A stretch of 64,000 nt of DNA from Gracilimonas sp. (lineage in GTDB: Bacteria; Bacteroidota; Rhodothermia; Balneolales; Balneolaceae), in assembly GCF_017641085.1 (NCBI RefSeq), contig NZ_JAEPPI010000002.1, positions 186,001 through 250,000 of the forward strand. The letters are read 5' to 3'. Below the pieces are notes generated by a model, which was not told the DNA's origin, ran no database searches, and worked only from the letters and a program-made list of their open reading frames with translations. Of this stretch, positions 9,422-36,280 are shown in pieces. The position numbers and the translations under genes were made by a program. Every line of letters begins with the position of its first letter. Position 1 is the first letter of the stretch.

Positions 9422-9506
9422 TTAAACACGGATGACAGGATAATGCAGGTGATCGCAGGTTTATTTATTGAGCACATTATAATTCAAGCGTCCTCCTCCT
9501 TTTGAA
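9421..9506. repeat. 86 bp direct repeat, copy 1
   Basis: Begins ATTAAACACGGATGAC and ends TCCTCCTCCTTTTGAA. A second copy of the same length and roughly 87% identity is at 9735-9820. The 3' end plus the following bases form a 9 bp perfect hairpin (9493-9513, CTCCTCCTT/AAGGAGGAG). A further CACGGATGACACAAATTT fragment at 9575 belongs to the same wider family. Confidence 0.8.
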
Positions 9507-9622
9507 GGAGGAGACAGAGGAGGTCGAAATGTTGGAATTAGCTTCAACCCATACAAGTACCATAATTGTTTGAACACGGATGACACAAATTTGACGGATT
9601 TTCGCAGATATATAAAAGTTAA

Positions 9623-9712
9623 GTCATCCCGGACTTGATCCGGGATCTCCAGGAATAAACTCCGATATAGTTCAGGAGATTCCGGTTCTGCACTCCGTTT
9701 GACCGGAATGAC
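9623..9712. repeat. Palindromic repeat, GTCATCCCGGA family
   Basis: Begins GTCATCCCGGACTTGATC and ends TTTGACCGGAATGAC; the GTCATYCCGG ends are inverted, and a CCGGACTTGATCCGG hairpin lies in the left arm. It lies between the two 86 bp direct repeats in the argB-argE gap, so the whole 424 bp gap is repeat DNA without a gene. Confidence 0.8.
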
Positions 9713-27815: not shown

Positions 27816-28991
27816 ATGATTGACGCACCTGTTAAAAACTCCAAGAAATTGACTGAAGAAAACCCGAATTTTTCCCTTTTTAATCAGCTTGCTAACTACG
27901 AACATGAGCAGGTGGTCATTTGCTCTGACCCTGAAGTTGGGCTGAAGGCTATCATCGCTATCCACAATACCACGCTGGGCCCGGCTTTGGGCGGAACCCG
28001 TATGTGGAACTATGAATCCGAAGAAGCAGCCATCAAAGATGTGCTGCGCCTCTCACGCGGTATGTCGTATAAAGCGGCTATTTCCGGACTGAACCTGGGT
28101 GGTGGAAAAGCTGTGATCATCGGCGATCCTCATACCGAGAAAACCGAAGCTTTATTCCGCTCTTTTGGCCGGTTCGTGGATGGACTTGGCGGACGGTACA
28201 TCACCGCTGAAGACGTGGGAATGACCGAGCGTGAGATGGAGTGGATTTATTCTGAAACGAAGTATGTAACCGGTATTCCCAAGGCACTTGGTGGAAGTGG
28301 AAACCCATCTCCGGTGACCGCTTATGGGGTGTACATGGGAGTTAAAGCCTGTGCTCAAAAAGCTTACGGCAGCGACTCACTCGAGGGCAAGAAGATTGCC
28401 TTACAGGGTGCCGGAAATGTAGCTTCCTATTTTGCACGTCATGCAGCTAAAGAAGGAGCCAAGCTCTACATCTGCGATATTTACGAAGACAAAGCTAAAG
28501 AACTTGCTGAGGAAGTGGGGGGTGAACTTGTTGACCCTGATGACATTTATGGGTTGGATGTGGACATCTATACTCCTTGTGCTTTAGGCGGTGTGATCAA
28601 TGACGACACCATGGATCAGTTTAAGTGTGATATCATTGCCGGAGGAGCTAATAACGTGTTGGATGATGAAGACAAGCACGGCCAGCAGCTGCTCGACAAA
28701 GGCATTATCTACGCTCCTGATTATGTGATTAATGCGGGTGGACTCATCAATATTGCCAGCGAACTGGAAGGGTACAACGAAGAGCGCGCCCTCCAAAATG
28801 CCGGTAATATCTATAACACGATCACCGACATCCTGAATTATTCGGAAGACCATGGCATTCCTGCTCATGTAGCTTCCAATGATCTGGCTGAAAAGCGTAT
28901 CAAAACCATAGGGCATATCAAGAATAAATATTCATCCAAGGCCAATGTATCCGGGAGGCTGGGTGAAGTTTACAAGCGCTTTATCGATTGA
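27816..28991 (+). CDS. ldh: Leucine dehydrogenase (Glu/Leu/Phe/Val dehydrogenase family)
   Basis: 391 residues. It oxidatively deaminates branched-chain amino acids to 2-oxo acids with NAD+. The substrate-site glycine-rich segment ISGLNLGGGKAVI with its catalytic lysine is at ~89-101, LGPALGGTRMW at ~54-64, and the NAD-binding LQGAGNVASYFA near 197-208. The length and the LGGTRMW motif favour leucine/valine/phenylalanine-type enzymes over glutamate dehydrogenase. An inverted pair GAACCG/CGGTTC lies 40-75 bp upstream. It ends in a strong terminator. Confidence 0.9.
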   Translation: MIDAPVKNSKKLTEENPNFSLFNQLANYEHEQVVICSDPEVGLKAIIAIHNTTLGPALGGTRMWNYESEEAAIKDVLRLSRGMSYKAAISGLNLGGGKAVIIGDPHTEKTEALFRSFGRFVDGLGGRYITAEDVGMTEREMEWIYSETKYVTGIPKALGGSGNPSPVTAYGVYMGVKACAQKAYGSDSLEGKKIALQGAGNVASYFARHAAKEGAKLYICDIYEDKAKELAEEVGGELVDPDDIYGLDVDIYTPCALGGVINDDTMDQFKCDIIAGGANNVLDDEDKHGQQLLDKGIIYAPDYVINAGGLINIASELEGYNEERALQNAGNIYNTITDILNYSEDHGIPAHVASNDLAEKRIKTIGHIKNKYSSKANVSGRLGEVYKRFID

Positions 28992-29085: not shown

Positions 29086-29273
29086 GGCCTTCGCGGGCAT
29101 TGACCCACTCCTTTGTTTCCTCTCCCGCGGAGAGGAAGACTCGTTGGTTATAGTTGACTCTTCTTCAATGCTACTAGCCAGTGGGTATATTCTTTTACTA
29201 ACTTAGAACCCAACCAACTAAAGAGCTTCCCCTCCGGGGAGGGGATTCAGGGGCGGGTCAATGTTAGCTAAGG
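29086..29273. repeat. Structured ~188 bp repeat, copy A, beside the DUF559 gene
   Basis: Begins GGCCTTCGCGGGCATTGACCC and ends GGGCGGGTCAATG plus a short tail; the CATTGACCC ends are inverted. Each arm holds its own hairpin (CCTCTCCCGCGGAGAGG on the left, TCCCCTCCGGGGAGGGGA on the right), and ACTCGTTGGTT on the left is echoed by AACCAAC on the right. Copy B at 29724-29907 is in the same orientation. This fills the gap after the leucine dehydrogenase terminator. Confidence 0.88.
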
Positions 29274-29291
29274 ACATGATGATTTCATGCC

Positions 29292-29669
29292 CTAGACTCC
29301 CTCATGCTCCAGTATCCACCTTTCTATTTCCATCACTACCGACTCCGTATAGTGCTTAGCATCAAATTCACTAAACCGCAGAAAACTCACTCCCAACTGC
29401 TCAATTATTTCCTGTCGTTGTTTATCATATTCAATTTTATAGTCATGACTTCTTCCATCAATCTCTATTGCTAACCTGAGTTCACGGCAATAGAAATCAA
29501 CGATGAAACGATGGATTGGACGCTGCCTCCGGAATTTATAACCAAGCAGTTTCTTTTTCTTAATTGCTTTATAGATTTCGATTTCGCCTGGAGTCGAGTT
29601 TTTTCTAAGCCAGCGAGCTTTGGCTATAAGATCTTCCCTGTATGGAATGATTGGTATTCTCTTTTTCAT
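29292..29669 (-). CDS. DUF559 (Vsr-like, PD-(D/E)XK) endonuclease-domain protein
   Basis: 125 residues. The fold motifs are RQRPIHRFIVDFYC (~50-63) and LAIEIDGRSHD (~66-76), with Asp, Glu-x-Asp-Gly and His in the arrangement seen in DUF559 proteins, distant relatives of very-short-patch repair nucleases. Arg/Lys are dense in the N-terminal third (RWLRKNSTPGE). The gene stands alone and is bracketed closely by two directly repeated ~185 bp structured elements, 18 bp past its stop on one side and 54 bp upstream of its start on the other. That suggests that gene and repeats form a unit; the biological role of DUF559 is not established. Confidence 0.9.
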   Translation of the reverse strand: MKKRIPIIPYREDLIAKARWLRKNSTPGEIEIYKAIKKKKLLGYKFRRQRPIHRFIVDFYCRELRLAIEIDGRSHDYKIEYDKQRQEIIEQLGVSFLRFSEFDAKHYTESVVMEIERWILEHEGV

Positions 29670-29723
29670 TGTACCCTCTTTTATTTTAAATACTATAAAA
29701 AATAAGGTAATGGCAAGTTTTCA

Positions 29724-29907
29724 GGCCTTCACGAGCATTGACCCACTCCTTTGTTTCCTCTCCCGCGGAGAGGAAGACTCGTTGGTGATAGTTGTGATTT
29801 ATTTAAGGCTATTGCCAATGGGTATATTCTTTTTCCTCACTCATAAACCAACCAACGAGCCTCCCCGCTCGGGCGGGGATTGTGGGGTGGGTTAATGCCG
29901 GCAAAGG
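29724..29907. repeat. Structured ~184 bp repeat, copy B, beside the DUF559 gene
   Basis: Begins GGCCTTCACGAGCATTGACCC and ends GGGGTGGGTTAATG plus a short tail. The first ~60 bases are nearly identical to copy A. The terminal inverted arms extend ~50 bases in this copy (CATTGACCCACTCC... against CATTAACCCACCCC...) and each carries a GC-rich hairpin (CTCCCCGCTCGGGCGGGG on the right). The rest of the gap up to hslO shows only a possible promoter. Confidence 0.88.
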
Positions 29908-30052: not shown

Positions 30053-30955
30053 ATGAACATCGAAGAATTTAATTTCAAAGACCGCCTTATCAAGGGAATC
30101 ACAACGGACGGTCATTTTAAAATATCTGTCGTAAAAACCACTGAAGTCGTAAAAACGGCACGAGATAATCACCAGCTTTCATTACTAAATACCGTCATCT
30201 TAGGGAGAGCGCTAACAGCTACCATGCTCCTGGCCTCTGAACTTAAAGGGGAAGAGCGCATCCGGATGCGCATGGATGGAGACGGCCCGATTGGGTTTAT
30301 AGTTGCTGAGGCAAATTCAGTGGGCGAGATCCGTGGTTATGTTAAAAACCCGGTCGCCGAGCTGGATTACTCTAATCCCGAAACAGAACTTGGAGATGGC
30401 ATCGGCTTAGGCATCATGACTTTTTCAAAGGTGCTTTACAACGAAGCCGAACCTAAAACAAGTACCATTGAGCTTATCAAAGGAGATGTGAATAGTGATG
30501 TAGCTCATTACCTGGCGCAATCCGAGCAAATTCCTTCCGCACTGCTTACTGATGTGGGCATTGATGAAGATGGTAACGTTACCGAAGCAGGCGGACTGAT
30601 GATACAGCGACTGCCCGGCGCCCCTGATGGTCAAATTGATATGCTTCAGGAGCGATTGGGTTCATTCCCGCCCATCGACGAACTGCTGGCCGATGATCAG
30701 TATATCGATGAAATCATGAATAAGGCTGTATCACCGCTGAAAGCAAAAGAGCTGAACCGCCAGCCGGTGGACTTTTTCTGTCGCTGTTCCCGCAAGCGTT
30801 TTTTGAATGCCCTGGCTATGCTGAATTACGAAGACCTGAAAGAAATGGACGGAGAAGGGCAGGAAATGGTTTGCCAGTATTGCAACAATAGAGAGTTTAT
30901 TTCGAAAGAAGAGATTGAGAAAATTGTGATGGATGCTCAGGCTAAAATGAACTAA
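30053..30955 (+). CDS. hslO: Redox-regulated chaperone Hsp33
   Basis: 300 residues. A holdase chaperone switched on by oxidation: four C-terminal cysteines bind zinc when reduced and form disulfides under oxidative stress. They are C243 and C245 (CRC) and C274 and C277 (CQYC), the exact family pattern. The N-terminal beta domain has the typical LLASELKGEERIRMRMDGDGP. It is followed after 13 bp by a 2-TM protein and then NDH-2 in the same direction. Confidence 0.96.
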   Translation: MNIEEFNFKDRLIKGITTDGHFKISVVKTTEVVKTARDNHQLSLLNTVILGRALTATMLLASELKGEERIRMRMDGDGPIGFIVAEANSVGEIRGYVKNPVAELDYSNPETELGDGIGLGIMTFSKVLYNEAEPKTSTIELIKGDVNSDVAHYLAQSEQIPSALLTDVGIDEDGNVTEAGGLMIQRLPGAPDGQIDMLQERLGSFPPIDELLADDQYIDEIMNKAVSPLKAKELNRQPVDFFCRCSRKRFLNALAMLNYEDLKEMDGEGQEMVCQYCNNREFISKEEIEKIVMDAQAKMN

Positions 30956-36186: not shown

Positions 36187-36280
36187 TCGTTCCGCGACGA
36201 AAGCCCTGAATCTTGTTATGGTATGATTTTTTACTGCGGGTCTTTTATAAGATTCGGATTCCTGCTTTCGAAGGAATGAC
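36187..36280. repeat. Degenerate palindromic repeat between convergent genes
   Basis: Left arm CGTTCCGCGACGAAAGC...TGAATCTT and right arm AAGATTCGGATTCCTGCTTTCG...GGAATGAC are imperfect inverted copies, with a GGAATGAC end like the other GTCAT-type elements. It lies between the APC gene and the IscA-like gene. Confidence 0.6.

Follow-up and report, generated by a model that had tools for sequence, protein, structure and literature searches.

Does a small nuclease whose gene stands between two copies of a long structured repeat act on those repeats and spread them? The question is raised by a gene of the DUF559 family (PF04480) in the stretch of Gracilimonas sp. DNA analyzed here, 64,000 nucleotides in length and referred to as the window. 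The protein matches the Pfam PF04480 profile with 95.5 bits against a gathering cutoff of 20.6 (E=2.2e-27), and the gene and its repeats are flanked on one side by an ELFV (Glu/Leu-type) dehydrogenase gene (27816-28991) and on the other by hslO, the gene for Hsp33 (30053-30955). An earlier sequence-only reading had placed the gene between two same-orientation copies of one element and had given the gaps between gene and repeats as 18 and 54 bp. Both copies are present, at 29086-29268 and 29724-29897, with 82% identity over 178 bp, and the gaps are roughly of those lengths.

Each element of approximately 185 bp is an inverted pair of half-elements, in the order A, GC-rich hairpin, B, a loop of about 60 nt, B', hairpin and A' (Table 1). 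The inverted ends (CATTGACCCACTCC and GGGGCGGGTCAATG) and the GC-rich hairpin in each arm, also part of the earlier reading, were found in both copies. As single-stranded DNA, the left and right elements fold better than their dinucleotide shuffles, with z values of -6.0 and -4.6, and none of 200 shuffles folded as well. Across eight related copies, 90% of the pairs at the positions of the named structure are standard, compared to 44-57% when the partners are slid. Compensatory changes are present in all four helices, and folding energies also support the structure. The CYCTCC..GGAGRG hairpin occurs three times in the 64-kb window, in each case within the two elements that flank the DUF559 gene. 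Elsewhere in the window there is a solo half-element at 9483-9528 (GCGTCCTCCTCCTTTTGAAGGAGGAGACAGAGGAGGTCG), and the DUF559 clade of that repeat family is absent from the source genome.

Table 1. Positions of the DUF559 gene and of the parts of its flanking elements in the window.
Feature	Position	Strand	Remarks
Left structured element	29086..29273	+	half-element, central loop, inverted half-element
Left element outer tag A	29098..29111	+	CATTGACCCACTCC
Left element hairpin 1	29117..29137	+	TTCCTCTCCCGCGGAGAGGAA
Left element inner tag B	29138..29148	+	GACTCGTTGGT
Left element inner tag B'	29212..29226	+	inverted
Left element hairpin 2	29227..29245	+	
Left element outer tag A'	29250..29263	+	GGGGCGGGTCAATG; facing gene
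DUF559 (PF04480) nuclease gene	29292..29669	-	125 aa, Vsr/EDxHD-like fold
Right structured element	29724..29907	+	orientation of left element
Right element outer tag A	29736..29749	+	facing gene
Right element hairpin 1	29755..29775	+	
Right element inner tag B	29776..29786	+	
Right element inner tag B'	29847..29859	+	inverted
Right element hairpin 2	29861..29878	+	
Right element outer tag A'	29884..29897	+	inverted

The association between DUF559 genes and repeats extends well beyond this locus. All three DUF559 genes of the source genome are bracketed by direct repeats, which belong to three distinct families. Among 85 DUF559 loci from 92 genomes of Balneolaceae, 51 had a flanking direct pair (at least 38 bits, within 700 bp either side). 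Among 505 other genes of these regions, 11 had such a pair (odds ratio 67, P=1e-39, a value that, like the other enrichment P value given here, treats related loci as independent). When positional orthologues were merged, 35-39 of 54 groups had repeats. In an independent set of loci from other parts of the phylum, direct or inverted repeats were likewise far commoner at DUF559 loci (16 of 21) than at other genes (3 of 117; P=5e-14). The association is not universal, in that direct repeats fell short of 33 bits at 32 of the 85 Balneolaceae loci. Repeats are almost absent from one positional group, comprising six loci from three or more genera, which suggests that some members of the family have been domesticated.

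The repeat features are concentrated close to the gene. In 80 DUF559 loci, mostly from Bacteroidota and Cyanobacteria and, owing to the use of a narrower alignment as query, leaning towards relatives of the window protein, the tag ACCCACCCC occurred at 1.37 per kb near the gene versus 0.10 per kb at a greater distance, and the hairpin at 2.03 versus 0.12 per kb, an enrichment of 14-17 times. Of the 41 loci from these two phyla with tags to the left and right of the gene, 35 had both of the nearest tags pointing towards it, which defines a core arrangement of hairpin, tag, gene, tag and hairpin. This arrangement often takes the form of inverted repeats of 30-70 bp that are 90-100% identical in most of the examples printed. 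The proposed layout of same-orientation copies of about 185 bp therefore stands for this locus, but the basic unit is the half-element, a tag plus a hairpin: inverted half-elements facing the gene are the invariant arrangement, and the direct repeats of the window are a Balneolaceae elaboration of it.

Similar structures were seen in other bacteria. By eye, several DUF559 loci in a plasmid collection (Sphingomonas, Sphingobium, cyanobacteria, Deinococcus and Neisseria) have flanking hairpin repeats; for example, long hairpin repeats flank the gene as direct copies in Neisseria gonorrhoeae and as inverted copies in Deinococcus psychrotolerans. In Escherichia coli, a similar half-element lies downstream of the DUF559 gene ycjD (1700-1741 of the extracted locus). 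Used as a query, the ycjD half-element matched a median of four places per genome, and in one genome without the rest a 41-nt piece of it was the sole match.

Repeat families diversify with the DUF559 clade and not with the genome. Members of the same clade in different genomes shared a repeat in 30% of pairs (at least 40 bits, same orientation), compared to 5% of same-genome pairs and 0.1% of different-genome pairs between clades, and a Mantel test of repeat-protein co-variation gave 0 of 1000. The small GIY-YIG nuclease genes that these bacteria also carry provide a control for this specificity. No CCTCC hairpins, the DUF559 repeat type, were found in 50 GIY-YIG loci. Instead, GTCAT-tagged palindromes of the CGTC REP class were present at 12 of the 50, with a first batch of 9 of 30 and a weaker second batch of 3 of 20; combined, there were 23 in 71 kb near GIY-YIG genes versus 34 in 1,169 kb of background. 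Canonical CGTC palindromes were not enriched near DUF559 genes (0.033 versus 0.029 per kb), and we rejected DUF559 as the CGTC-REP enzyme on this ground. There is thus a double dissociation, with DUF559 genes accompanied by their own repeat type and GIY-YIG genes by CGTC-type REPs. The stand-alone GIY-YIG loci of Balneolaceae with GTCAT-tagged palindromes, for which support is moderate, include L375, L377 and L382-L386. The window itself holds CGTC-type palindromes at 9623-9646 (GTCATCCCGGACTTGATCCGGGAT) and 36258-36280 (GTCATTCCTTCGAAAGCAGGAAT).

Orthologous loci differ in the presence or absence of the DUF559 unit or of the element. The source genome (G000) and its relatives G023 and G029 carry the unit at the window site, whereas G024 lacks it there and has the same neighboring genes. 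A second intergenic site, compared across ten congeners, is empty in G025, holds unrelated palindromes in G026 and G000, a solo or partial element in G024, G021 and G029, an array without the gene in G028, and the complete element-gene-element arrangement in G027, G023 and G022. Copies within one locus turn over quickly. A recent duplication of a whole unit was found in another relative, G017, in which two 540-bp DUF559 units that are 99.6% identical occupy two sites. G016 lacks the unit at both sites and G011 at the second, the flanking genes being the same. There was no obvious target-site duplication at the G017 copies, and the empty sites are too diverged to define exact boundaries. BLAST-type searches across genomes gave 15 matches to four element families in the source genome; in G028 they gave six element matches and no DUF559 match. 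At one place in the source genome (C1:1605263-1605420), the contig ends within a repeat, and an additional copy may lie in the gap. We also considered E. coli ycjD as a source of an exact empty site, and the one ycjD-less strain opened was uninformative, with other genes at that position.

The protein is related to nucleases of the Vsr/EDxHD fold. An AlphaFold (AF2) model of the window protein has a pLDDT of 90, and its top Foldseek matches are a DUF559-like protein of Neisseria (3hrl) and the homing endonuclease I-Bth0305I (3r3p; E=5.6e-4). A sequence profile search agrees on both relatives (E=1.6e-4 for 3r3p), and Vsr (1vsr) is a weaker structural match (E=0.018, probability 1.00). The catalytic-type residues D58, E69, D71 and H75 are conserved in the DUF559 alignments and invariant in one of them. 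Decayed copies also occur, as would be expected of a selfish gene: a gene at C1:1428313 of the source genome has an aberrant C-terminus, and several other matches contain internal stops.

We think it probable that DUF559 recognizes and cuts its own half-elements, copying elements, with or without the gene, to new sites, and that gene and repeats together make up a small selfish element. The nuclease would recognize clade-specific half-elements, each a tag and a GC-rich hairpin, probably in the form of a hairpin or four-way junction, on extrusion or when the DNA is single-stranded. A cut there could, through strand transfer or break repair, place copies at new intergenic sites; what is copied may be a half-element, a whole element, or the gene together with the elements on either side of it. 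Where direct repeats enclose the gene, recombination between them could remove it, and such gene loss would explain the solo elements.

One version of this model would bring DUF559 closer to the homing endonucleases. DUF559 would cut both strands of elements that are solo or lack the gene, and repair from the gene-bearing copy would install the gene there, so that spread would be from one existing element to another, with no invasion of naive sites. I-Bth0305I, a close relative of solved structure, is a homing endonuclease, and at one orthologous site some genomes have a solo element and others an element with the gene. However, the G017 units occupy sites without any element in relatives, though a solo element may have arrived there first. 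We regard this version as credible but unlikely; as it is a form of the preferred model, the likelihoods that we attach to the two overlap.

Alternatively, the gene and its repeats may be passive passengers that are moved by homologous recombination or gene conversion of the host, with the nuclease serving in repair or defense. Recombination between element copies probably does rearrange the chromosome. One site of the source genome is split in two in G023 (L256 on C3 and L257 on C1), with one element at each breakpoint, beside flagellin-like genes, and some relocation can therefore occur without action of the nuclease. The fast turnover of copies within a locus would also be expected of passengers. 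An apparent relocation of a unit between L065 and L017 can be explained in the same way; we withdrew it as proof of transposition and for this reason use the G017 pair as the evidence for mobility. Passive movement leaves several observations unexplained, namely the clade-following repeat families and their fixed orientation to the gene, the lack of such repeats at other genes and at GIY-YIG genes, and the two near-identical G017 units at sites that are element-free in relatives. On balance we consider it an unlikely account.

Other explanations are harder to reconcile with these data. The repeats could act as RNA, with structured transcripts regulating or guiding the nuclease in the manner of the HEARO/omega RNAs of IscB. 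Strong folding and compensatory changes are equally expected of RNA, but the elements have no Rfam match, and the symmetry of the inverted half-elements, which stand at either side of the gene, fits DNA ends better than a single upstream RNA, so that this role seems improbable. Mobilization of the repeats by another enzyme, a Y1/HUH RAYT or a different transposase, with DUF559 as cargo, appears very improbable. The source genome does have four Y1_Tnp genes, but none adjoins a DUF559 unit, which led us to reject a Y1 transposase as the mobilizer. The Y1 flanks lack hairpin elements of this kind, and the sole clear repeat pair at Y1 genes is unrelated to the DUF559 elements; moreover, the association is with DUF559, clade-matched and in several phyla. 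That pair is a direct repeat of about 140 bp at a RAYT-like Y1_Tnp gene (C1:1590988). Finally, the position of the gene between two folded sites of like orientation recalls an integron cassette array, with the repeats as attC-like recombination sites, but the dispersed single-gene units in place of varied-cassette arrays, the repeats that follow DUF559, and the occurrence of both inverted and direct arrangements make this reading extremely improbable.

The preferred reading, a selfish nuclease that spreads its own half-elements, has its nearest parallel in REP/RAYT (TnpA_REP) REPtrons and REPINs, in which a small nuclease gene is likewise bracketed by tagged hairpin repeats (PMC8266576, PMC3116915, PMC6006769). 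In both systems the repeat family matches the clade of the enzyme, tagged hairpins form inverted pairs, copies occur alone and in local arrays, and relatives differ in presence or absence. DUF559 loci share the layout of a REPtron, a nuclease gene bracketed by cognate, clade-matched tagged palindromes. They are nevertheless not REPtrons, on account of a different enzyme fold and tag, a low copy number, and the appearance of the gene unit at new sites. The REPtron enzyme, which cleaves single-stranded repeat DNA, is a Y1 HUH tyrosine transposase (PF01797), compared to the Vsr/EDxHD fold of DUF559. The REPtron tag is GTAG (GT[AG]G) 5' of the palindrome, compared to GACCC.../ACCCACCCC and GACTC... 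here. REPtron repeats are often present in more than 100 copies, compared to the few element matches in the source genome. Transposition of a REPtron as a unit is reported not to occur (PMC6006769), whereas the gene-carrying DUF559 unit appears at new sites. The resemblance to REP/RAYT with an unrelated nuclease, which the sequence-only reading had put forward, is supported, and the enrichment, presence/absence and specificity comparisons did not refute it. The system is most likely REP/RAYT-like, with a nuclease of the Vsr/EDxHD fold.

Comparison with other relatives places the DUF559 units apart from each of them. Vsr is a mismatch endonuclease that is paired with a cytosine methylase. Its fold is related (PDB 1vsr), but the DUF559 gene is instead flanked by repeats and selfish-looking. 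EDxHD homing endonucleases (I-Bth0305I, PDB 3r3p) have a homologous catalytic domain, also encoded by a mobile nuclease gene. In contrast to theirs, the DUF559 gene of the window is intergenic, outside any intron or intein and without a conserved host gene as target, and has structured repeats of its own on both sides. CGTC-tagged REPs (Di Nocera 2013, PMC3733652) also consist of tagged palindromes in head-to-head pairs, and a CGTC/GAGTC-like inner tag in some Balneolaceae elements recalls them, but the canonical forms occur near GIY-YIG genes. We tentatively propose, as a view with somewhat less than an even chance of being correct, that REP-type selfish systems exist in bacteria in several independent forms, in each of which a small nuclease fold is paired with tagged hairpins of its own: the known HUH Y1 with GTAG REPs, DUF559 with the ACCCACCCC/CCCTCC class in several phyla, and stand-alone GIY-YIG with the CGTC class. 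On this view DUF559 would spread both its hairpin class and the gene-carrying unit.

The presence of matching hairpin repeats around DUF559 genes in many distant bacteria suggests an undescribed family of small mobile elements. In the open-licence literature of PubMed Central, no paper linked DUF559 to repeats and none contained the core sequence; novelty is provisional because the search was limited to those papers. DUF559 is a widespread family of "function unknown", and GC-rich hairpin repeats are common in many genomes without an explained origin. Their pairing offers a testable function for both, and it brings in a second fold of nuclease with a possible part in the spread of structured repeats. 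The enzyme of CGTC REPs was stated as an open question in 2013 (PMC3733652), and GIY-YIG nucleases are now a candidate for it. For the genomes that carry them, DUF559 elements are a likely recurring cause of chromosomal rearrangement.
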